Shown: piece by piece, positions 9,724-64,000 of the stretch
How positions within the stretch are numbered: the first letter of the stretch is position 1
Layout of the letters: every line of letters begins with the position of its first letter
NCBI RefSeq assembly: GCF_004359985.1
Contig: NZ_SMRO01000002.1
Span: 1,003,135-1,067,134, forward strand
Reading direction: 5' to 3'
DNA length: 64,000 nt
DNA from: Paraburkholderia flava
GTDB taxonomy: Bacteria > Pseudomonadota > Gammaproteobacteria > Burkholderiales > Burkholderiaceae
Program-made: the position numbers and the translations under genes
The notes under the pieces: model-generated
Database searches by the model: none
Told to the model about the DNA's origin: nothing
What the model saw: the letters and a program-made list of their open reading frames with translations, nothing else

Positions 9724-11658
<1,935 letters not shown>

Positions 11659-16244: not shown

Positions 16245-18449
16245 ATGGAAATTAAAGTCAACTTTCTCGACAAGCTGCGTCTTGAGGCTAAGTTCGATGA
16301 CTTCACGGTAGTGGCCGACCAGCCTATCCGTTATAAAGGCGATGGCTCGGCACCGGGGCCTTTCGATTATTTTTTGGCTTCGTCGGCCTTGTGTGCCGCT
16401 TATTTTGTGAAGTTGTACTGCGTAAATCGCAACATTCCGACGGAAAACATCCGCCTGTCGCAGAACAATATTGTTGATCCGGAAAACAGGTACCAACAGA
16501 TTTTCAAGATTCAGGTCGAGTTGCCGCCGGATATCTCGGAAGCCGACCGCCGCGGCATCTTGCGCTTTATCGACCGTTGTACAGTGAAAAAAGTGGTGCA
16601 GGCCGGACCCGAGTTTGTCATTGAAGAAGTAGAAAACCTGGATGCCGATGCTCAGTCGTTGCTGACGTTGCAACCGGCTTCCGGTGCCAGCACCTATATT
16701 GCGGGCAAGGATCTGCCGCTGGAGCAAACCATCGCCAATATGTCGGCCATTCTGGCGGGCCTCGGCATGAAGATTGAAATTGCTTCGTGGCGCAATATCG
16801 TTCCGAATGTGTGGTCGCTGCATATCCGCGATGCGCATTCGCCGATGTGTTTTACCAATGGCAAGGGAGCGACCAAAGAAAGCGCGCTGGCGTCGGCATT
16901 GGGCGAGTTTATCGAGCGCCTGAATTGCAACCACTTTTATGGCGGCGCGTTTTGGGGCGAAGACATCGCCAATGCGGCGTTTGTCCATTACCCGGACGAG
17001 CGCTGGTTCAAGCCCGGCCGCAAGGATGCGCTGCCGGCTGAAATTCTGGATGCGTACTGTCTGGAAATTTATAACCCCGATGATGAGTTGCGTGGCTCGC
17101 ATCTGTACGACACCAACTCCGGCAATGTGCAGCGGGGTATCTGTTCGCTGCCGTATGTGCGGCAGTCGGACGGCGAAGTGGTGTACTTTCCGTCCAACCT
17201 GATCGAGAACCTGTTCGTCAGCAATGGCATGAGTGCCGGTAACACGCTGGCCGAAGCGCAGGTGCAATGTCTGTCCGAAATTTTCGAACGGGCCGTAAAG
17301 CGCGAAATTCTGGAAGGTGAGATTGCGCTGCCTGATGTGCCGCAGGAAGTGCTGGCGAAATACCCCGGCATTCTCGCCGGGATTCGAGGCCTGGAAGAGC
17401 AGGGTTTTCCGGTGCTGGTGAAGGATGCGTCGCTAGGTGGCACCTACCCGTTGATGTGCGTCACCTTGATGAACCCGCGGACCGGCGGTGTTTTCGCCTC
17501 GTTCGGCGCTCACCCGAGCTTCGAGGTGGCGCTGGAACGGAGTCTGACGGAGTTGCTGCAGGGGCGCAGTTTTGAAGGTCTGAACGATTTGCCTCAGCCT
17601 ACCTTCGTCAGTAACGCCGTGACTGAATCAAATAACTTTGTCGAGCACTTCATCGATTCCAGCGGTGTGGTGTCGTGGCGCTTTTTCAGTGCCAAAGCGA
17701 ATTTCGAGTTTGTCGAATGGGATTTCTCCGGCCAGGGTGAAAACTCCAACGCCGAGGAAGCCGCTACGTTGTTCGGTATTCTCGAAGACATGGGCAAAGA
17801 GGTTTACATGGCGGTGTATGACCAGCTGGGTGCCGTCGCCTGTCGGATTCTCGTGCCCGGTTATTCCGAAGTTTACCCGGTAGAGGATTTGATCTGGGAT
17901 AACACAAACAAGTCGCTGTTGTTCCGCGCCGATATCTTGAATGTGCATCGTCTGGACGACGCAGCGCTCACGGCGCTGCTCGATCGGCTGGAAAACAACG
18001 AACTGGATGAGTACTCCGACATTGCCACCTTGATCGGCATTGAATTTGACGAGAATACGGACTGGGGGCAGCTAACCGTCGTCGAGTTGAAACTGCTGAT
18101 TAATCTTGCCTTGCAGCAATTCGAAGCGGCGCAGGAACTGGTGGGAGCGTTCCTGCAATACAACGACAACACGGTCGAACGCGGATTGTTTTATCAGGCC
18201 TTGAACGTGGTGCTGGAGGTGTTGCTCGATGACGATCTGGATCTGGACGACTACGCGCTCAACTTCCGCCGGATGTTCGGCGACGCCCGGATGGACGCGG
18301 TAATGGGGTCGGTGGACGGCAGCGTGCGCTTCCATGGGCTCACGCCAACGAGTATGAAACTGGAGGGTCTCGACAGGCACCACCGCCTGATCGACAGTTA
18401 TAAGAAATTGCACAAGGCGCGCGCTAATGCGGCGGCTGTAGCGAAGTAG
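16245..18449 (+). CDS. ycaO: OsmC-YcaO fusion protein
   Basis: 734 residues. An N-terminal OsmC-like domain (about 1-140) has the two family cysteines, Cys50 (SSALCAAYF) and Cys112 (DRCTVKK). The YcaO domain follows (about 150-580), with ATP-binding acidic residues Glu221/Glu224 in ALGEFIERL and Glu345/Glu348/Arg349 in SEIFERAVKRE. The C-terminal region (580-734) is acidic and helical. E. coli YcaO, which lacks the OsmC part, assists beta-methylthiolation of ribosomal protein S12 by RimO; other YcaO enzymes make thiazolines or thioamides. The longer fusion form also exists as a family. Codon use is visibly less GC-rich than its neighbours, which suggests acquisition by transfer. The ribosome site is weak. 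Confidence 0.87.
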   Translation: MEIKVNFLDKLRLEAKFDDFTVVADQPIRYKGDGSAPGPFDYFLASSALCAAYFVKLYCVNRNIPTENIRLSQNNIVDPENRYQQIFKIQVELPPDISEADRRGILRFIDRCTVKKVVQAGPEFVIEEVENLDADAQSLLTLQPASGASTYIAGKDLPLEQTIANMSAILAGLGMKIEIASWRNIVPNVWSLHIRDAHSPMCFTNGKGATKESALASALGEFIERLNCNHFYGGAFWGEDIANAAFVHYPDERWFKPGRKDALPAEILDAYCLEIYNPDDELRGSHLYDTNSGNVQRGICSLPYVRQSDGEVVYFPSNLIENLFVSNGMSAGNTLAEAQVQCLSEIFERAVKREILEGEIALPDVPQEVLAKYPGILAGIRGLEEQGFPVLVKDASLGGTYPLMCVTLMNPRTGGVFASFGAHPSFEVALERSLTELLQGRSFEGLNDLPQPTFVSNAVTESNNFVEHFIDSSGVVSWRFFSAKANFEFVEWDFSGQGENSNAEEAATLFGILEDMGKEVYMAVYDQLGAVACRILVPGYSEVYPVEDLIWDNTNKSLLFRADILNVHRLDDAALTALLDRLENNELDEYSDIATLIGIEFDENTDWGQLTVVELKLLINLALQQFEAAQELVGAFLQYNDNTVERGLFYQALNVVLEVLLDDDLDLDDYALNFRRMFGDARMDAVMGSVDGSVRFHGLTPTSMKLEGLDRHHRLIDSYKKLHKARANAAAVAK

Positions 18450-52595: not shown

Positions 52596-54545
52596 ATGAG
52601 TCATATGCTGCAAAACGGGGAGATGGCGGTACTCGCCATCGCCGTGATACTGGCAATCGCATTGCTGGTCTGGATATCGGGAATCATCCGCTACATTCCA
52701 AACGACCGCGTCGGCGTGGTCGAAAAGCTCTGGAGCCTGAACGGCTCGGTCAAGTCGGGGCTGCTTGCACTCAGCGGAGAAGCAGGTTTTCAACCGGACC
52801 TGCGTCGCGGCGGCTTTCACTTTTTCGCGCCGTTTCAATACCGTGTCCACATTCATTCGATGGTGTCGGTGACGCAAGGCAAGATCGGCTATGTGTTTGC
52901 CCGCGATGGTCGCGATCTGCCCGCCGGACAGACGCTTGCCGACAACTCGAACATCGATGATTTTCGCGACGTGCGCGCCTTCCTTGAAAAAGGCGGCGAG
53001 AAGGGCCCGCAGCGCAAGGTATTGCGCGAAGGCACGCACATTCTGAATCCCGCGCTCTTTGTCGTGATGACGGAAGAGGCTACCTATTCGCTGTCGCTTA
53101 AGGCCGCCGAGAAAGCCTATTACGAAAAGATGCGTGAGCTTCTCGATCAGCGCTCGGGATTCTCGCCGGTCGTCGTGAAGGGCGCAGAGGGCGAACACGA
53201 TTCCGACCTGCTCGCGATCGTCACGGTACAGGACGGTCCCGCGTTGCCGAAGGACGAACTGCTCGCGCCGGACGTCGGCGATGTCCACAACTCGTATCAG
53301 GAGCCGCAGAAGTTTCTGGCTGCCGGCGGTCGCCGTGGTCGTCAGGAGCGCGTGCTGGTCGAAGGGACGTGGTACATCAACCGTCTGTTCGCGACGATCG
53401 AGTTCATTCGCAAGACCGTGATTCCGGTCGGCTTTGCAGGCGTCGTCGTGTCCTATACGGGTCGTCGCGGCGCCGATCTGTCGGGCAGCGAATATAGCCA
53501 CGGCGAGCTCGTCGAGAGCGGTTGCCGCGGCGTATGGCGTGACCCGCTGATGCCGGGCAAGTACGCGTTCAACACGTACGCGGGCAAGATCGAACTCGTG
53601 CCGACGACGAACTTCGTGCTGATGTGGAAGTCGGGCGAGAGCGGATCGAACTTTGATTCGAATCTGCGTGAAATTACGCTGATCACGAAGGATGCGTTCG
53701 AGCCGTTGCTGCCGTTGTCGGTGGTCGTGCACATCGACTATCGCAAGGCGCCGATGGTCGTGCAGCGCTTCGGCAACATCGCGCAGCTCGTCGAGCAGAC
53801 GCTCGATCCGATGGTGTCGTCGTATTTCAAGAACGTCTCGCAGACGAAGACCTTCATCGAGCTGATCCAGTCGCGCAGCGAGCTGCAGGCCAATGCATCG
53901 AACGATATGCGCGGGCGTTTCCAGGCGTATTCGCTGGAATTCGAGGAAGTGCTGATCGGCACGCCGAAAGCGCAGGGCGGTGACGTACAGATCGAAAACA
54001 TCATGGCCCAGTTGCGCGACCGGCAGATTGCGCGTGAACAGGTCGAGACTTTTGCGCAGAAGCAGATCGCGGCCGACAAGCAACGCGAGCTGAACGAAGC
54101 GGAGCAGCGCGCGGCCAAGCAGAAGGAGCTCACGGGCTCGCTCGTCGACATCAGCATCAAGGAAAACATGGGCTCGGCGAGCGTGAAGGCAGCCGAGAAG
54201 CGTCGCCAGGAAATCGAGGCGCTGGCTCACGCTGAGAAATTCCGTCAGGAGATGGAGGGCTCGGGTCGCGCGTCGGCGATTCGTTCGGTGGGCGAAGCGG
54301 AAGCGTCGGCAATCAAGGCGAAGTCCGAAGCGTTGCAGGGCGACGGTGCCGACAAGCAGCTGACGCAGACCGTGATGCTGCGACTCGCAGAGGCCTTCGA
54401 GACAGCCAAGGTGCCGCTCGTGCCGCAGATCCAGCTGGGCGGTGGTACGGAAGGAAACGCATTCTCGACGCTGATGTCGCTGATGAGTTCGCTTAAGGCG
54501 CTCGAGCTGTCCGCATCGCACACGCGGCATAGCGAAACGCAGTAG
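52596..54545 (+). CDS. SPFH/band-7 (flotillin-like) membrane protein
   Basis: 649 residues. N-terminal membrane helix (about 10-33; MAVLAIAVILAIALLVWISGII), SPFH-type beta-rich region that includes PNDRVGVVEKLWSLNGS and, in a second part, IPVGFAGVVVSYTGR, then a long Ala/Glu-rich coiled coil (about 455-590; QIAREQVETFAQKQIAADKQ). Flotillin-like proteins build membrane microdomain scaffolds or protease regulators. The N-terminal region is longer than in classic flotillins. GAGGGAAA precedes ATG 52596; a TTG six bases upstream is less likely. Confidence 0.82.
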   Translation: MSHMLQNGEMAVLAIAVILAIALLVWISGIIRYIPNDRVGVVEKLWSLNGSVKSGLLALSGEAGFQPDLRRGGFHFFAPFQYRVHIHSMVSVTQGKIGYVFARDGRDLPAGQTLADNSNIDDFRDVRAFLEKGGEKGPQRKVLREGTHILNPALFVVMTEEATYSLSLKAAEKAYYEKMRELLDQRSGFSPVVVKGAEGEHDSDLLAIVTVQDGPALPKDELLAPDVGDVHNSYQEPQKFLAAGGRRGRQERVLVEGTWYINRLFATIEFIRKTVIPVGFAGVVVSYTGRRGADLSGSEYSHGELVESGCRGVWRDPLMPGKYAFNTYAGKIELVPTTNFVLMWKSGESGSNFDSNLREITLITKDAFEPLLPLSVVVHIDYRKAPMVVQRFGNIAQLVEQTLDPMVSSYFKNVSQTKTFIELIQSRSELQANASNDMRGRFQAYSLEFEEVLIGTPKAQGGDVQIENIMAQLRDRQIAREQVETFAQKQIAADKQRELNEAEQRAAKQKELTGSLVDISIKENMGSASVKAAEKRRQEIEALAHAEKFRQEMEGSGRASAIRSVGEAEASAIKAKSEALQGDGADKQLTQTVMLRLAEAFETAKVPLVPQIQLGGGTEGNAFSTLMSLMSSLKALELSASHTRHSETQ

Positions 54546-56326: not shown

Positions 56327-57292
56327 TCAAGGCGTGATCACCTGCAGCCCCAGCGTGAGATTCAGATCCCGCTCGACGCTCATCCACGGGCTGATCACCG
56401 CGTAAGTGCCGTTCGTCGACGGTGGCCACTGATGCTCGTCGGGCGCCGGCTGCACATCGGCAGGCAGCGTTGCACCGACATTCAGACCGACCATGTACAC
56501 CGACGCGCCGCCTGCGACGTAGAACACCGGCGCGCCGCTGTCGCCACCGGAGCTGACGTAGTTCGCGAGCAGTTGATCGGTCAGCACGCCTTGATCGTCG
56601 AACGTCACCGTCACGTTCTTTGCGCAGATGACGCCGGAGCGCAGCGCGGTCTGGTTCGACGCGCCCTGCATCGACACGGCGATGCCGCGGGCCGGTGCAT
56701 CGTAAATCGCGTCGACGCTGTAGGTGCTGTTGCTCGAACGCCAGATCGCGCGTTCGGTAATCGCCGTCGTGCCGGCGACGAATGCGCTGTCGCTGCTCGC
56801 GTTGCCGGTGTAGTCGGTGACCGCGACCACGCGTCCGATGCGCCAGTCGTTCGTGGCGCTTCGGCGCGGCTGATAGACGTCGACGGCGGTGCGAACCGCG
56901 ACGTGTCCGCAGGTCACGAATCCTGCTTGCCCTTCGCGCGTGGCCGCGAGACAGAGCGTGCCTTCGCTCGCCACGTCGGGACAGCTGAGATACAGGCCAC
57001 CGACCGGCGGCCGGTTGTAGTCCCGCTTGTTGGCGTGACGGACAGCGGGCGCGCACGGAAACAGGTGCAACGGCGCGTCGCCGGCGAGCGTTTCGAGGTG
57101 GCGATGCACGCTCGCGATCGATGCTGCCGTATCGACGCCGACGGCGACGTGGCCGCGTTCGTCGTCGATATGGCAGAGGGTGACGGGCAGGCGTGTGCCC
57201 GAGCCCATCATCATGTTGCTGATGCGACGGTGCGCGCGGTGCAGCGCGGCGTTGAGCGCCGGATAGTGGGTTGCGGATACGGTGCGGTACAT
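56327..57292 (-). CDS. Trypsin-like (chymotrypsin-fold) serine peptidase
   Basis: 321 residues. The triad can be placed at His130 (FVTCGHVAV), Asp168 (ASSDSAFV) and Ser252 (SSGGDSGAPVFY), spaced as in the chymotrypsin fold. The region before residue 95 is an N-terminal extension of unknown role, possibly a propeptide. There is no signal peptide, unusual for this class. AGGGAG precedes ATG 57292; a GTG just before it is also in frame. Last gene of the accessory operon, 100 bp after the amine oxidase gene. Substrate unknown. Confidence 0.75.
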   Translation of the reverse strand: MYRTVSATHYPALNAALHRAHRRISNMMMGSGTRLPVTLCHIDDERGHVAVGVDTAASIASVHRHLETLAGDAPLHLFPCAPAVRHANKRDYNRPPVGGLYLSCPDVASEGTLCLAATREGQAGFVTCGHVAVRTAVDVYQPRRSATNDWRIGRVVAVTDYTGNASSDSAFVAGTTAITERAIWRSSNSTYSVDAIYDAPARGIAVSMQGASNQTALRSGVICAKNVTVTFDDQGVLTDQLLANYVSSGGDSGAPVFYVAGGASVYMVGLNVGATLPADVQPAPDEHQWPPSTNGTYAVISPWMSVERDLNLTLGLQVITP

Positions 57293-57392
57293 CACGTGGC
57301 TCCCTTTATCGATAACCGTTTCGCGGACCTGTGCCGACGAACCGGTTCTGACTCTCGCGCGACGGATGCCGCGCGATCGAACGCGGTGTGGC

Positions 57393-58697
57393 TCACGCCG
57401 CGTGGACGTCGTGCAACACGGCTACTGCGGCCCGCTCGCCCGAGAAGTAGGCGGCCTGCAGCGTGCCGTAGCACGACGGGTCGGTGGCTTCGCCGGCGAA
57501 GTACACCCGCTTCACGGGCGTAGCGAGTGCGTCGCGTGCCTTCAATGCGTTCGGATCGTCGGGGCCGCCGCCGGTGAACGCGGTGTACGAATACGCACCG
57601 CGCGCGGCGGGTTCGTTGCTCCAGTTGGTCATCGCGCGGCCGGTCGTGAAGAACACGCCGTCACACGCGGTCTGGATGCGCGTCTTGAACAGCTTGAATA
57701 CCTCGCTGTCGGGCAGACGGTCGAGCGCCGCCGCGAAATCGCCTGCCGCGTGCGCGATCAGCACGTCGTCCGCATGGGGCAGGCGGTAGTACTGCCACAC
57801 GCCCGGCGGATCGTCTTCGGCGAGGTAGTAGTTGGTGCCGGGCACGATGTCGGCCGGCGACGTGCGCAGCCGCAGCGCGAGCTTCTTGTACGAGCCGAGG
57901 CGTAGCACTTTCAGCGCGTTGCGATGCGCGTCGGGCAGCGCCGGTTCGAACGCGATGCTGCCGTCGCCGAGCACCGACACCGGCACGGTGACGATGCACG
58001 CGTCGACGGTCAGGCTCTGGCTGTCGTAGGTGAGCGTGACCTTGTCGTCGTCGTACGCGATCTTCGACACGACCGCGCCGAAGTGCTCGACGTAGGTGCT
58101 GCCCGATGTCGGCCGCAGTTTCTGGCCCCACGCGGCGACGAGACTGCCGATACCCTTGACCACGAAGAGATTCTCTTCGCCGTCGCCTTTTGCTTCGCGC
58201 GCGCGATCGGCGGCGATGTACTGCCATGTCTCTGCCGATTCGGTGAACGGTCCATACGTCGACGTCGCGTGACCGAACAGCTGGACCTCCTCGATCTTGC
58301 GCGGCTTGCCCGCGACGATCACATTCGGCTTCTTGCTGTTTTCGTCGAACGAGGCCTGGATTTCATCGACGACCGCCTGCACCTGCGGCTCGGTCGTCGG
58401 CAGCGTTTCCCAGCCGTCTTCGGTCTCGACGCGCAAGCGATACACCGCATCTTCCTCGACGGTATCGAAGTTGAGTTTCTTCGCGATCGCCGTCAGCGGA
58501 TTGAGCGTCGGGTCCTGGATGTACTGCGCGCCCTTGTCGAACGCGAAGCCGGGGATCGACGTCGTGTCGGTGCGAGCCCGTCCGCCGTAGCGACCGGTTG
58601 CCTCGAGCAGATGCACAGCGGTGACGTTCTTGTCCGCGAGCAGCGTGTAGGCGGCCGCGATGCCCGCGACGCCTCCGCCGATGATGGCGACTTTCAT
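57393..58697 (-). CDS. Flavin-dependent amine oxidase (monoamine oxidase family)
   Basis: 434 residues. FAD-binding GGGVAG (7-12), the GG doublet motif RYGGRART (36-43), and C-terminal YFAGEATDPSCYGTLQAAYFSGERAA with the FAD-contact GTLQAAYFSG. Members oxidise amines, amino acids or polyamines, releasing hydrogen peroxide and ammonia, or desaturate other substrates. AAGGAG lies well before the ATG. No signal peptide is visible, so the enzyme is either cytoplasmic or exported by a non-standard route together with its operon partners. Confidence 0.85.
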   Translation of the reverse strand: MKVAIIGGGVAGIAAAYTLLADKNVTAVHLLEATGRYGGRARTDTTSIPGFAFDKGAQYIQDPTLNPLTAIAKKLNFDTVEEDAVYRLRVETEDGWETLPTTEPQVQAVVDEIQASFDENSKKPNVIVAGKPRKIEEVQLFGHATSTYGPFTESAETWQYIAADRAREAKGDGEENLFVVKGIGSLVAAWGQKLRPTSGSTYVEHFGAVVSKIAYDDDKVTLTYDSQSLTVDACIVTVPVSVLGDGSIAFEPALPDAHRNALKVLRLGSYKKLALRLRTSPADIVPGTNYYLAEDDPPGVWQYYRLPHADDVLIAHAAGDFAAALDRLPDSEVFKLFKTRIQTACDGVFFTTGRAMTNWSNEPAARGAYSYTAFTGGGPDDPNALKARDALATPVKRVYFAGEATDPSCYGTLQAAYFSGERAAVAVLHDVHAA

Positions 58698-58734
58698 GGG
58701 AACACTCCTTTTCTATCGATTCAACGGCAGCGGT

Positions 58735-59334
58735 TTAGCGGCAACGGATCAGGTAATTCAGCGCGAGGTTGACCGCGCGCGTTTCGGACGCGGTACGCGG
58801 CGTGCCGTTCGTGTTGTCGGTCGTGACGCCGGTCGTCGGTTGCTCGGGATTGGGGATCAGCAGCGGACTGCCGGGTGGCTCGGCGGTGTCGGGGCTTTCC
58901 ATCGTCGACACGTAGAAATGCTCGTGGCCCTGGAACGCGTCGGCCTGCCACGAGCCGACGTGATCGCCGGACGCGCCGCTCGACGGCTGCGCGGTGCGCT
59001 TCGCCGCATCGGGATCGTTACCCGCGCCGCCGTCGACGCCGCGCACGAAGCGCCCGCGCAGATCGGGCACGTTGAACGTCGTCGTGTCGCTGCCGAAGCT
59101 GCTGCCGATCACGCCGTACAGTTCCCAGTACGCGCGCATCGAATACGCGCTGCCGTCGCAATAGAGCCAGCCTTGACGGGCCAGCTCGGCGCGGACCTGG
59201 CTGATGATCGTGCTGCTTGCGTCGGTTGTCGCGAGCAGGCCCGCGTACGGCACCACGATGCCGATCGGCCAGACGGGCCATTGATTCGGATCGTGCGGCG
59301 CGTGTGCGTGAGAAGGGGATGAAGGATGGCTCAT
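58735..59334 (-). CDS. Phage tail collar domain protein
   Basis: 199 residues. The collar signature is GWLYCDGSAYS, YWELYGVIGSSFGSD and TFNVPDLRGRFVRGVDGG (about 55-102), and the C-terminal ETRAVNLALNYLIRC ends as in microcystin-dependent-protein/tail-collar families. The first ~25 residues are His/Pro-rich. Such proteins are tail-fibre tips or secreted fibre-like proteins. No other phage structural gene is in the window. The ATG overlaps the stop of the 987-residue gene by 4 bp, with GGAGA upstream. Confidence 0.87.
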   Translation of the reverse strand: MSHPSSPSHAHAPHDPNQWPVWPIGIVVPYAGLLATTDASSTIISQVRAELARQGWLYCDGSAYSMRAYWELYGVIGSSFGSDTTTFNVPDLRGRFVRGVDGGAGNDPDAAKRTAQPSSGASGDHVGSWQADAFQGHEHFYVSTMESPDTAEPPGSPLLIPNPEQPTTGVTTDNTNGTPRTASETRAVNLALNYLIRCR

Positions 59335-62294
59335 GAGGTCTCCACGGGTTCATGCGGCGGTTGCGCGCCGAAGCGCGGCAGCGCGTCACCGCGTTGCAGA
59401 TAGATAAGCGGTAGCGGTACGCGCAGCGTCCATGCGGGACGCGGCGCCGGGAGCAGGGCGTGCTGTTCTTCGAGCCCGCCGCGCTGTTCTTCGAGCGGAA
59501 TGACAGTCGATTGCGCGACCGGCACGTCGGCGCCACCGTCGACGCGTGGCACAGGCGGCGCCGGCCAGCGCGCCTGCCACTGCAGCGCGAACAGCGCCTG
59601 GTCCTGCGTCTCGGCGCGCAGCGGGATCAGCACCCACGCGAGATCCGCATCGAGGAAGCGGCGAAAGAGCCGCGCCGACGCCGGCTCGGTCACGACGGGC
59701 GCAGCCGGTGCGTCGATCAGACGCGGCCCGGTGCCCGCCGGCGGCGAGTCGTAATGCCAGCTCATGCAAGTCCAGTCGAAGAAGCCGGTCAGCGCCTGCG
59801 GGTCGCTTGTCGCGCTCGTCGCGCACAGCAGATCGAGACATTCGCTCTGCAGCACGTCGCGTTGAATCCCGGCGGTTTCGTTGGCGCTCGCGGCCGCGAT
59901 GCGCGCGACCGAGTCGGCGTCGTACGTGCGCAACTGGTCCTGGTACGCACGCAAGAGCCGCGTGTAGACCTGCATCTGCCACTCGACGAGCAGCGGGTCC
60001 ACGATGTTCTTCGTCACTGGGTCGGTGAGCGTTACGCGCTGACAGATCAGCTCGACGCTCAAGCCGAACAGCGGCGCGTCGCTCATCACGGTGATGGGCA
60101 CCGCGCCGCGCGCGCCGATCACCGCATCGGTGTTCGTGAACGTCGTCGTGTTCAACCACGCGACGGGCGGCGTCGGTGGCGTGAGCGTCGGATTGCTGAC
60201 GCTCGACGACGACACCGTCGGCATCGTCACCGTGACCGCCACCGGCGCAGTGGCGGTGTTCCCCGTCAGCGATGTCCCGCCGACGCTTGCGACAAGCCCA
60301 TACGCGGTGCTCGCCATCGCGAGCGTCGCGCTGCCCGACGCAACCATGTAGCCGACGGGCACGCGCAACAGCGACGTATCGGCGACCGTGACGCGGTTGA
60401 TTTGCGCCGACACGGTGATCTGGTCGGCGGGCGGCGCGGGCAGATCGGTCAGCCCGTATTGCGCGCCCCAGCTCTGATAACTGGTCGGCGTGACGAGCGC
60501 ATAGCCCTGACCGTCGGCGGTGCTGAACGCCGCGAGCGGCGTCGGCTTGACGAGCGGAAACGCTCCCTGCGCGAGTACCTGCGCGATCCACGCGCTCGCA
60601 GGCGATTGCACCTGCACGGCCAGTATCAACCGACGACCACGCGGCTTCAGCGACACCCGCAACAACCGGTCGACCCAGCGATAGACACCGACCAGACGCT
60701 CGCCGTCGCGGTTGTCGATGCATTGCGATTCGCGGCGTTCACGCCACTCTCGCCACACATCGCGCCGCTGTACGTTCATCCGGTCCGCGACTTTCTGCGC
60801 GGCCTGTTCGCTCATCCGCTGCACGAGCTTCGCGACGTTGTTGCCGTCGAGCGCGAGCTTGCCCGATCCGTCGGCGGCGGTGCCGGTCAGCAGCAGATTC
60901 AGGTTGCTGTAGCTCGGCGTCACGTTGCTCAGGTTGCGCACGAGTCCTTCGGTGCACATCGCTTCTTTCAGCGTGTCCGCGAGTTCGCTTGCGGCGTCGC
61001 TGTGACTGCTCGTGTCGTCGCTGCGGCTGCGCTCTTCGTCATGGCGCATGTGCCGCTCGCTGTCCTGCACACTGCGTTCATGTCGCTCCTGACGTTCTCT
61101 CGGCATCAGGTTGACGACTTCGGCGAGTTCCCCCGCCGCATAGCCTCTCAGGCTCTGGCGCGCCACTTCTACTTCGCCGACACCGAGCAGCGACCATTGG
61201 CCGACGATGGCGGGCGACGCAGCGGGCGTCTGTGTTTGTGTTGGTGCTTGTTGTTGCGCTTGCGGCGCCGGCGCGCTCACGCTGCCCGACAGCGGTGCGG
61301 CTGATACTGCATCGGGCAACGACGGCGTCGCGTCGAGCAGTAGCCGGCGCACGGTATCGGCACACAGCGCGTGGTTACCTGTCGCGAGTGCCTGCATGTA
61401 GTGAATCACGCGCAGGATGTCGACGAGCTGCGTGGCGAGCGTGCCGTCCGCCGATGTGCCGACCAGCGCCAGCGTGAAGACGCTTTGCCATGCGTCCTGT
61501 TGCGCCGTCGTGCAGACACTGCTCGCCAGAAAATCCGCAACGCTCTCGCCGAGCAGCGTCTGAGCTTCGGCGAGCAGTTCGTCGAGCGTGCGATGGCCGG
61601 TTGTCGCGAGCAGCGTCACGCGCATCGCGGGCAACTGATTGATCGGCGCAGGTTGCGTCGACACATCGCTAATGAACGCGGCCGTGCCGCGAAACGTCGT
61701 CGCCGCCTGCTGTTTTTGCGCGGCGGCGCCCGTGCCGCTGATCGCCGCGAGCGTCACGTACAGCGGCAGGCTCGACGGATCGGCGGCGGTCATGTAGCGC
61801 AGCAGCGCGTCGGCGAGTTGTCCCGGCGTCGGCGGACGCAGCCACAGCAGCGGGAACAGGTCGGCCGTGCCGGGTAGCGCGTCGATCTCGACTTCTTCGG
61901 GATCGTCCGGATCGTCGGGCGTGGGGTCGGGCGGCGGCAACGGTTTGTACTGCGCGATCGCGTCGGAGAAGAATTCGTTGGGCGTCAGCGGGACGTTCGC
62001 CCACAGCAGCGCGTTCGTTTCTTCGTGCTCGTGCCGCAGGCTCAGCGTGGCATCGACGGGCGCGTCGAACGCGCCGAAGACCCACGTGCCGCTGCGCTGA
62101 CCCAACGGGTCGAAGCTCAGCATGCCGGTGTAGTGATGCGGCATGCCGGGCCCGGCCAGTTGCAGCAGTTCCACCTCGACACGCTGACCCGCGTCGTGCC
62201 ATATCCAGCTCACGCGCAGCAGCACGCCGGTGCGGATGGCAACTTCCCACTGGCCGTTACCCTGCGGGATCGGCGGTCGGGTGGATTCGGTCAT
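59331..62294 (-). CDS. Large multidomain protein of unknown function (987 residues)
   Basis: Residues 15-110 form a beta-rich domain shared with the C-terminus of the neighbouring cysteine peptidase (LRVSW, QLAGPG, GTWVFGAFDAPV, LLWANVPLTPNEF). An acidic Pro-rich linker follows (118-137), a helical region (140-330), a Gln/Pro linker (340-362), then GVGEVEVARQSLRGYAAGELAEVVN (371-395) and a highly charged coil (398-445). Later parts carry GVYRWVDRLLRVSLKPRGRRL (536-555), a Ser/Thr/Pro-rich beta region, and WQMQVYTRLLRAYQDQLRTYD. I have a vague memory of these motifs in other large uncharacterised bacterial proteins, but cannot name a function. No signal peptide. GAGGAGC precedes the ATG. Confidence 0.7.
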   Translation of the reverse strand: MTESTRPPIPQGNGQWEVAIRTGVLLRVSWIWHDAGQRVEVELLQLAGPGMPHHYTGMLSFDPLGQRSGTWVFGAFDAPVDATLSLRHEHEETNALLWANVPLTPNEFFSDAIAQYKPLPPPDPTPDDPDDPEEVEIDALPGTADLFPLLWLRPPTPGQLADALLRYMTAADPSSLPLYVTLAAISGTGAAAQKQQAATTFRGTAAFISDVSTQPAPINQLPAMRVTLLATTGHRTLDELLAEAQTLLGESVADFLASSVCTTAQQDAWQSVFTLALVGTSADGTLATQLVDILRVIHYMQALATGNHALCADTVRRLLLDATPSLPDAVSAAPLSGSVSAPAPQAQQQAPTQTQTPAASPAIVGQWSLLGVGEVEVARQSLRGYAAGELAEVVNLMPRERQERHERSVQDSERHMRHDEERSRSDDTSSHSDAASELADTLKEAMCTEGLVRNLSNVTPSYSNLNLLLTGTAADGSGKLALDGNNVAKLVQRMSEQAAQKVADRMNVQRRDVWREWRERRESQCIDNRDGERLVGVYRWVDRLLRVSLKPRGRRLILAVQVQSPASAWIAQVLAQGAFPLVKPTPLAAFSTADGQGYALVTPTSYQSWGAQYGLTDLPAPPADQITVSAQINRVTVADTSLLRVPVGYMVASGSATLAMASTAYGLVASVGGTSLTGNTATAPVAVTVTMPTVSSSSVSNPTLTPPTPPVAWLNTTTFTNTDAVIGARGAVPITVMSDAPLFGLSVELICQRVTLTDPVTKNIVDPLLVEWQMQVYTRLLRAYQDQLRTYDADSVARIAAASANETAGIQRDVLQSECLDLLCATSATSDPQALTGFFDWTCMSWHYDSPPAGTGPRLIDAPAAPVVTEPASARLFRRFLDADLAWVLIPLRAETQDQALFALQWQARWPAPPVPRVDGGADVPVAQSTVIPLEEQRGGLEEQHALLPAPRPAWTLRVPLPLIYLQRGDALPRFGAQPPHEPVETS

Positions 62295-62324
62295 GAGCGG
62301 CTCCTCATCGCTTCAGCGTCGACA

Positions 62325-63461
62325 TCACGACGATGTGTCGATCGGCCACGTCGCGATGACCTTGTGCACGCCTTCCGCATTCGTCAGCGGATAGGACGCC
62401 CACAGGTTCGCCTGCGGCTGCGGATTGTCTTGCGTGCCCGGCACCTGACTGAGCGTGAGCGTCAGCTCGAGCGGTATGCCCGCGCCGAACTGCCAGATGC
62501 CCTGCTTGTTCATGCCGGGCGTGCGGCCGAGGACGGCCTGATAGCTTTTCGCGTCACCGGGGCCGGCTGTCTGCGCGATCTTCAACTGAACGCTCGAGCC
62601 GTCGCCTTGCGCGGCCCAGTCGACCCGAAGCTGGACGCCGCCGCGTGCTTCGCTTGTCCATGGGCTGATGGTTAGCGGGTTGGGGGGCGTTGGCGTTGGC
62701 GTCGGAGTCGGAGTCGGAGTCGGAGTCGGAGTCGGAGTCGGAGTCGGAGTCGGAGTCGGAGTCGGAGTCGGAGTCGGAGTCGGAGTCGGAGTCGGAGTCG
62801 GAGTCGGAGTCGGAGTCGGAGTCGGAGTCGGAGTCGGTGCGGACACTTGCGCCAGCCCAGCGTTCCCCGCATCCACCACATCGCTCATACCGTCGACGTC
62901 GACATCGCTTTCCGCGAACGGCGAATACTCGGACACGTAGGACGTGTTCTGCCAGTACATCCCCTGCTGATACGTCGTGTCGCTGTACGGCACCGCGTGA
63001 ATCAACCCGTCGTCCGGATCGAACACGCTGACCGTCGCATCGTTCTGGTTGCTGGTGATGCCGATGATCACCACCCAGTGCCCCTCATTGCATGCGAGAT
63101 CCGGGCTGGGATTCGGCAGGGCGGCTCCGACGATCGCGAGCAGCGGATCGCCGATGTTGATCGAGTCGTAGATTTCGGCGGCGGTGGGGAACGCGCGTTC
63201 GTCGGTGTTGTTGTCGAATTGCAGATCGCCGAGCGCAGCGGCTGCGGACTGCTGCACGTTGATGTTGGCATTCGCCGGGGTATTCGTGGCGATCGCCCAC
63301 GCGTTCGCGAACGCCTGGTCGGAACCGTAGGGCGGCGAGGCAGGATTCCCGCGATTGGTGCTGAGGTACCAGTTCGTGATCGAACGTCCCGCGCTTGCCC
63401 AGCACGAGTTGGGCCGCTGCTGGATCGCGTGCGGATAAGGGGTGAGTAGTGCTGCGGGCAT
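62325..63461 (-). CDS. Papain-like cysteine peptidase with Thr-Pro repeat linker
   Basis: 378 residues. The catalytic domain (1-190) has Cys20 in [10 protein letters not shown] with an oxyanion Gln just before it, His128 in [10 protein letters not shown] and Asp148 in VFDPDDG, like the C39/C70 (AvrRpt2-type) papain fold. About 25 Thr-Pro repeats follow (209 to about 260), encoded by a perfect hexanucleotide tract, then a C-terminal beta-rich domain (about 262-378) homologous to the start of the 987-residue protein. No signal peptide. GAGGTCAG precedes the ATG. The shared domain suggests both proteins dock to the same partner. Confidence 0.8.
62701..62838. repeat. Perfect hexanucleotide repeat (23 units) coding for Thr-Pro
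   Basis: 22 identical GTCGGA units from 62701 to 62832, then one GTCGGT. The preceding GGCGTT/GGCGTC units are degenerate copies. On the minus strand it encodes alternating Pro and Thr. Because the unit is six bases, expansion or contraction keeps the frame and only changes linker length. Confidence 0.97.
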
Positions 63462-63516
63462 GACTGACCTCGAGTGGAATGACGTAACGGTTGACGAAAA
63501 GGCGTTGGCTCCGGCT

Positions 63517-64000
63517 TCACGCATCCGGCGGATGCCACGGTTCGATGACCGGAAACCCGCCTGCTTCTGCCGGTGCCGCGATGGCCCACGCCCCCTCCAC
63601 TGCGGGCAGCCGTTGCTGCGCGCTGAGGCCATCGAGCACGACCACCAGATCGAGCGGCGCATACGCAATCCTTAGCGCGCGACCCGGCGCGACGAATCCC
63701 GCGAGACGGTACGGACTGTCGAGATAGCGCGCGACGAAATCGATGCTTCCGCTGCTCTCGTTGTGCACGTGCAGTCCGGGCGCGGCGGCTTGCGGACTCG
63801 CATCGAGCGTGAACATGCGCGCGCCGCTCTGCGACACGAGACGCGCGGCGATCGAGCAGGACGAATTCACGTCGGTCGCGGCGCTGTGATACGCGACCTG
63901 GGTCGCGTGCTCGATGACGCGCGCATCGAACGTCAACCGTTGCGGGGCGAAAGCGGGGGCGAGCGTAGCGCCCATCGGCGTGACCCACACGTCCCAGATC
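63517..64000 (-). CDS. Partial CDS of unknown function, open at the window edge
   Basis: At least 157 residues; the frame stays open to base 64000, so the true start may lie outside the window (a GTG at 63990 and an ATG at 63975 are possible internal starts). The visible sequence is beta-rich, with LHVHNESSGSIDFVARYLDSPYRLAG and IAYAPLDLVVVLDGL, and ends WHPPDA. I do not recognise it. It lies 55 bp upstream of the cysteine-peptidase gene on the same strand, so it probably belongs to the accessory operon. Confidence 0.55.
   Translation of the reverse strand, partial: IWDVWVTPMGATLAPAFAPQRLTFDARVIEHATQVAYHSAATDVNSSCSIAARLVSQSGARMFTLDASPQAAAPGLHVHNESSGSIDFVARYLDSPYRLAGFVAPGRALRIAYAPLDLVVVLDGLSAQQRLPAVEGAWAIAAPAEAGGFPVIEPWHPPDA

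Follow-up and report, generated by a model that had tools for sequence, protein, structure and literature searches.

A seven-gene operon of Paraburkholderia flava with a giant protein of an unnamed family and a tail-collar protein: a possible biological-conflict cassette

The window analysed here (G000:C2:1003135-1067134), a whole stretch of 64,000 nucleotides from the 6.97 Mb genome of Paraburkholderia flava, ends within an operon of seven minus-strand genes, whose second gene (u197) is cut by the edge at 64000 and whose first (u194) lies wholly beyond it. The core of the operon, which consists of u194, often u197, usually a papain-like peptidase, a giant protein of 950–1000 amino acids (aa) and a protein with a phage tail-collar domain, is conserved across Beta- and Gammaproteobacteria, and its gene order is kept across other genera more than by chance. 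We tentatively propose, as a reading with a real chance of being right, that the operon is a horizontally moving biological-conflict cassette that would make, in the cytosol and under the control of a sensor, an effector complex of several proteins bearing a fibre-like tip.

We read 35 kb from window position 54001 onward (L002 and L003; a position in L002 is the window position minus 54000). An earlier note, made from the window alone, had described six minus-strand genes running off its edge, the outermost being partial. Their positions and strand hold, and the operon does run on: u197 continues for 110 bases and is followed by u194. The gene count, however, becomes seven, and the supposed partial protein is a complete open reading frame (ORF). 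The features of the operon are as follows.

56327..57295, minus strand: trypsin-like serine peptidase, 322 aa (GTG start, with an ATG at 57292; PF13365 E 0.16, sub-threshold)
57393..58697, minus strand: flavin adenine dinucleotide (FAD) amine oxidase, 434 aa (PF01593 E 7.9e-45)
58735..59334, minus strand: phage tail-collar-domain protein, 199 aa (PF07484 E 4.6e-16)
59331..62294, minus strand: giant protein, 987 aa (profile membership of a large unnamed family)
62325..63461, minus strand: papain-like (C70/C39-type) cysteine peptidase, 378 aa from the ATG (Pfam and alignment of relatives)
62701-62837, minus strand: perfect 6-bp tandem repeat of 22.8 copies, coding the Pro-Thr linker of the papain-like peptidase
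63517..64000 in the window, full ORF L002:9517-10110, minus strand: u197, 197 aa, a paralogue of u194 (extends 110 bases past the window)
L002:10190-10738 (182 aa, inner ATG) or 10190-10774 (194 aa, earlier start), minus strand: u194, the first gene of the operon

Within the window the intergenic gaps are, in series, 97, 37, -4, 30 and 55 bp; u197 and u194 are separated by 100 bp, or by 79 bp if the first start codon of u197 is the one used. For the papain-like gene, the ATG at 63461 is the more probable start, not the TTG at 63668.

Conservation was examined in twelve loci, nine from a profile scan of named species genomes, whose reach was pattern-limited, and three from the genus. They contain both the giant and the collar gene and belong to Paraburkholderia, Bordetella, Pseudomonas, Collimonas, Duganella, Luteimonas and Pseudoxanthomonas. 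Gene content was determined by tblastn with queries from the window and from relatives, so that queries drawn from the loci themselves give 100% self-matches; likewise, the loci were chosen for the giant, which is present in 12/12 by selection. The collar gene was found in all twelve, u194 in eleven, and u197 and the papain-like gene in nine each, a co-occurrence across several genera that bears out the multi-component set supposed in the earlier note. The tblastn searches did not find u197 in L030 and L032, nor the papain-like gene in L028 and L033, where a 116-aa ORF occupies its place; the misses in L025 go with a deletion described below. The collar gene of L026 and L027 is on the opposite strand, past the STAND gene. 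Six loci also contain a further protein of ca. 200 aa.

Unlike the core, the accompanying enzymes change. Amine oxidase and trypsin-like genes were each found in four of the twelve loci, and endolysin genes in another four, two of them of the lambda type and two of the GH19 type, all in Pseudomonas. The lambda-type lysozyme of L027 matches PDB 1am7 (E 2.7e-39); for the GH19 gene of L028, the matches are to phage endolysins (E 4.4e-79). A crude scan of the four Pseudomonas loci revealed no holin-like small hydrophobic ORF.

A second recurrent association is with putative regulators, since a STAND-type NTPase or a kinase gene is near 11 of the 12 copies and a kinase fragment is near the twelfth. 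The seven STAND-type genes encode a winged-helix Trans_reg_C domain fused to an NTPase. The nSTAND1 family is over the cut-off in L029, L030 and L032; the NTPases of L026 and L028 match AAA_16 and others, over the cut-off only in L028, and for L027 and L033 the assignment comes from similarity only. In the four Pseudomonas loci the gene and u194 diverge, in the other three it lies downstream, and in Duganella (L031) a kinase-TPR gene is found ca. 3 kb downstream.

Giant identities across genera, set against those within the genus, suggest horizontal transfer: the piece from Bordetella ansorpii (L025) is 78% identical to the giant of the window, and the two same-genus copies are 70% (L040) and 82% (L041) identical. 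These identities, taken without a tree, point to movement of the cassette between species. In the B. ansorpii locus a TOMM kinase fragment (residues 862-990) abuts a giant that starts at residue 320, with the junction at L025:9999-10001; downstream of the truncated giant the collar, amine oxidase and trypsin-like genes are all open. The junction is an apparent deletion scar of the same joined unit that in P. flava links the operon to a peptide-modification cluster, described below. The giant is rare, with matches in 2 of 200 genomes of the family (our own included, the other being a distant relative). A metagenome-assembled genome of Trinickia contains the giant (locus number 14940) and u194 (14955).

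The collar protein (PF07484) and the amine oxidase (PF01593) both scored above the Pfam cut-off, and the papain-like gene scored 19.2 bits with C70 (cut-off 19) and 21.4 bits with C39_2 (cut-off 24). The catalytic Cys and His and an Asp (DP) of the latter are kept in 8/8 aligned relatives, and the TCGH, SDSAF and GDSGAP motifs of the trypsin-like peptidase in 3/3 aligned homologues. By sequence, the closest solved relative of the amine oxidase is LSD2/KDM1B (E 2e-17), followed by polyamine oxidases and others. After its (Pro-Thr)n linker, the papain-like peptidase has a C-terminal domain in common with the N-terminus of the giant (hhalign probability 99.3, E 2.4e-20), which was seen in the papain-like proteins of Paraburkholderia and not in those of other genera. 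The linker varies in length among relatives, and its 6-bp repeat unit preserves the reading frame.

The collar protein matches the T4 short tail fibre 1ocy (E 1.7e-5), and u194 and u197 are homologous to each other (hhalign probability 88.7, E 2.6e-6), the former showing low-score matches of its beta-sandwich to pilins and other surface domains. Elsewhere, we observed two u194 copies within one 384-aa frame in genome G689 (L055:16698-17852), with no giant in the 20 kb read, and short pieces of a u194-like gene, possibly a decayed copy, at G378:C4:369919-370170.

The close homologues of the giant amount to 22 proteins at E <= 1e-3, itself included. Neither the giant nor u197 belongs to any Pfam family, and the giant has none in NCBIfam or PHROG either; a scan of 20 homologues of the giant gave just three Pfam matches, all weak (best E 0.026) and each confined to a single member. 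The entry point to a large family was a distant match in G139, with 26% identity over residues 363-665. This is a family of at least 220 proteins at E <= 1e-6, which spans Pseudomonadota, Bacteroidota, Bacillota and Actinomycetota as well as one haloarchaeal plasmid, and whose sources include, among the matches listed, Sporocytophaga, Pedobacter, Nitrosomonas, Massilia, Paenibacillus and Streptomyces. This wide family has no model in Pfam, NCBIfam, PHROGs or PADLOC, and matches were found in 6 of 349 genomes of the phylum, our own included. The giant of the window aligns with it over 741 columns (hhalign probability 100, E 6.1e-50), and is therefore a divergent member with an added N-terminal domain. 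An AlphaFold2 model of the giant (mean pLDDT 73.7, pTM 0.52) suggests an N-terminal beta domain (ca. 1-117), a helical domain (ca. 157-320), long paired helices at 399-524 (low confidence), a jelly-roll-like domain (ca. 617-776) and a helical C-terminal part.

Genes for enzymes also adjoin giants of the wide family. An arginine deiminase (PF03068, E 1e-25) is directly downstream of the G139 giant, in the same direction; a patatin phospholipase is downstream in L077 (E 2.4e-22) and, past a short ORF and according to the annotation, in Natronorubrum, and in Chryseobacterium patatin and M15 genes are upstream. The gene after the giant of L079 encodes a 1081-aa protein whose match to Het-C is below the cut-off. 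L080 and L081, two distant loci from Gammaproteobacteria, each have a collar gene after the giant (identity of 40.6% and 36.9%, respectively). We also observed one giant of the wide family as an extra gene in a prophage-like contig (L088, IMG/VR contig 2531839366_000001), its neighbours being judged by eye.

According to the cassette model, the giant would be the scaffold of a multi-protein complex built in the cytosol, u194 and u197 would be beta-sandwich binding or assembly subunits, the papain-like peptidase would dock via the domain it has in common with the giant, and the collar protein might form a trimeric, fibre-like adhesive tip. The changeable enzymes would act as the active payload or as a release tool: a hydrogen-peroxide-making amine oxidase and a trypsin-like peptidase here, and wall-cutting endolysins in Pseudomonas. 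The regulator would sense a threat, after which the complex would be released, probably by cell lysis or a non-classical route because no export signals are evident; the likely target would be a competitor, predator or host cell. The absence of signal peptides stated in the earlier note agrees with a crude hydropathy scan of the seven products, which showed no export signal, no dedicated signal-peptide predictor having been run; the sole hydrophobic stretch was the FAD-binding N-terminus of the amine oxidase (19-residue mean of 1.93, others <=1.4). The toxin, predation or surface-modifying role suggested in that note remains unproved, although it gains strength from enzymes that change between lineages and from the endolysins and STAND or kinase genes in the vicinity of relatives.

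Several observations weigh against this proposal. The variation in payload rests on eight of the twelve loci, in three lineages, because the copies from Collimonas, Luteimonas, Duganella and Pseudoxanthomonas, whose flanking genes were partly scanned, yielded none of the four additional enzymes. Neither a sequence comparison, which returned no credible solved relative of the giant's family, nor Foldseek, with nothing at E < 1e-3 and no good solved structural match, gave the giant a counterpart, and a hydrophobic-moment (pore-former) test for a membrane-inserting beta hairpin came out negative. Also, u194 can occur without the giant, as in G689, where 20 kb surrounding it were read, and the neighbours of several giants of the wide family have no recognised family themselves: proteins of 705-746 aa with no over-cut-off family follow the giant in L082, L083 and L084, and in L078 a 372-aa protein comes next and after it one of 792 aa that has no family. 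In Tsukamurella and Streptomyces the giant is followed by unscanned hypothetical proteins.

The products might instead form an extracellular or surface-bound degradative and adhesive complex for the use of matrix or nutrients, with no role as a weapon. The peptidases, the amine oxidase, the collar domain and the pilin-like and surface-domain matches of u194 would all suit such a complex, but the crude scan showed no export signals, and a system for nutrient use would not ordinarily have relatives with endolysins and STAND or kinase genes close by; we consider this explanation unlikely.

Another explanation comes from the neighbouring genes. Past 64000, head to head with the operon and 611 bp from u194, lies a divergent plus-strand unit, an NHLP-Burk cluster for a thiazole/oxazole-modified microcin (TOMM), a ribosomally synthesized and post-translationally modified peptide (RiPP), with the following genes.

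L002:11350-12369, plus strand: FHA protein
L002:12282-16472, plus strand: TOMM_kin_cyc kinase/cyclase fusion (TIGR03903 1699.5 bits, over the cut-off)
L002:16465-16827 and 16835-17188, plus strand: two TOMM precursors (TIGR03795 135.6 and 128.6 bits, cut-off 41)
L002:17309-19522, plus strand: YcaO cyclodehydratase fusion (TIGR03604 240.2 bits and TIGR03882 107 bits, over the cut-off)

The precursor precB ends in Cys-Cys, and the genes further on, in L003, were read by eye as ordinary chromosomal genes. NHLP-Burk clusters contain tandem precursors with a large Ser/Thr kinase, according to PMC2887384; the word "collar" is absent from both PMC2887384 and PMC4603692. Among 144 genomes of the genus, our own included, TIGR03795 was found in nine and the giant in three, all within those nine, an overlap with a chance of 1.7e-4 if independent, which is too optimistic given shared descent. 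These three genomes (G000, G243 and G289) contain all seven operon genes, with the TOMM unit head to head in 3/3. The giant was not found genome-wide in the other 6/9 TOMM genomes, nor any of the seven genes beside their TOMM loci in the stretches fetched. One TOMM locus (L047, from G249) keeps the YcaO and precursor genes, but the 20 kb examined there showed neither the kinase nor the FHA gene.

The operon as a whole, or failing that its pair of amine oxidase and trypsin-like genes, could then serve the TOMM pathway, with peptidases cutting the leader and the flavin oxidase modifying the product. Besides the adjoining clusters, this is favoured by the finding of these two genes only in the 4/12 loci with an adjoining TOMM kinase or kinase fragment, and a TOMM-specific role for the two is conceivable because they were found only in the TOMM-joined lineage, a further point against the cassette model. 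Against service to the TOMM pathway are the six TOMM genomes lacking the giant, the lack of an evident use for the giant and the collar protein in peptide maturation, and the presence of the core in the eight loci L026-L033 (the papain-like gene in six of them), from genomes without over-cut-off TIGR03903. Indeed, no match of this family was over the cut-off in 11 genomes (the nine of the scan, G689 and G139), in which TIGR03795 was not searched; sub-cut-off matches occurred in all 11, mostly to kinase or NTPase stretches. Overall, service to the TOMM pathway appears quite unlikely.

The STAND-type NTPases near 7/12 loci and the kinase or NTPase genes beside the Paraburkholderia copies, together with the rarity of the system and endolysins that could kill the carrier, would fit an intracellular abortive-infection defence, in which these sensors unleash the enzymes inside the cell. 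However, the giant, collar, trypsin-like, u197 and u194 products match nothing in the PADLOC defence library; the match of the papain-like gene (E 0.007) covers its Pro-Thr linker, and that of the amine oxidase (E 2.4e-9) is confined to residues 1-45. In the same library, the matches of the TOMM kinase are all over its kinase domain (25, among the matches listed), and one STAND protein matches at E 0.003. Since the collar tip also suggests extracellular action, we regard defence by abortive infection as very unlikely.

The tail-like apparatus that the earlier note thought possible beyond the window is not supported, the TOMM cluster occupying that position. No PF04984 sheath was found in the whole genome (the control search was positive in 3/14 genomes), the tube, baseplate, other tail and capsid families not being searched. 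For tube, baseplate and spike genes beside the operon, the ORFs of the 35 kb were listed and their products assigned by inspection, without a phage-family scan of each one. One type VI secretion system TssB/VipA sheath gene is present on another contig (G000:C1:216502-216954), unlinked to the operon. Nor is the operon an ordinary prophage, the outcome that would have spoken against the earlier note, because neither 50,697 phage records nor viral contigs gave a match to the giant; u197 has none in phage records and u194, which was not run against these, none in viral contigs. The collar gene is the sole one with relatives in phages, which its domain would lead one to expect. That the operon is what remains of a phage, tailocin or injection particle is thus highly improbable, since the collar protein's matches to 26 PHROG families, the phage-type endolysins of Pseudomonas and the single viral-contig match of the wide giant family, in a prophage-like contig, are set against a genome with no PF04984 sheath and a single collar gene, a giant without a match in phage records or viral contigs, a u194 without one in viral contigs, and operon genes that are open and conserved across genera.

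Should the conflict-cassette proposal be right, it would provide a handle on a giant family lacking a Pfam family and an assigned function, an example of a phage-fibre domain reused without a phage tail, and a partner system for NHLP-Burk TOMM clusters in one lineage; the head-to-head junction of the operon and the TOMM unit makes co-regulation directly testable. A broader and more doubtful idea is that it represents an unrecognised class of effector devices: a soluble, non-tail particle with a giant scaffold found over several phyla, a collar targeting tip and interchangeable enzymes (oxidase, peptidases, lysozymes, lipases and arginine deiminase), which would be armed by STAND or kinase proteins, released without a secretion signal and, in Paraburkholderia, deployed with a two-peptide TOMM product. 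Our literature search, with most subscription papers and preprints outside its coverage, found no published description of the gene set.

In polymorphic toxin systems, a variable C-terminal toxin domain is fused to a constant part and accompanied by an immunity gene. We considered and rejected the operon as such a system, immunity genes not being searched for, because its enzymes are separate genes and the giant, which lacks a toxin domain, keeps its conservation as far as the C-terminus. It does resemble polymorphic toxin and STAND- or kinase-centred conflict systems in having a core with changing enzymes, peptidases, and NTPase or kinase genes nearby; it differs in that the enzymes are in separate genes and no immunity gene or toxin-cassette array, which were not searched for, is known here. 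The terms "collar" and "amine oxidase" are absent from PMC7159879, on conflict systems. The divergent neighbour matches the NHLP-Burk TOMM clusters, as described in PMC2887384, in its tandem precursors, Cys-Cys end, YcaO fusion and large Ser/Thr kinase, whereas the seven-gene operon is not generally a part of such clusters, the giant being missing from 6/9 TOMM genomes of the genus. Finally, the 199-aa protein shares its collar domain with phage short tail fibre and collar proteins (PF07484, T4 gp12), but here, in a genome without a PF04984 sheath, it is encoded by a stand-alone gene adjoining a giant of an unnamed family.

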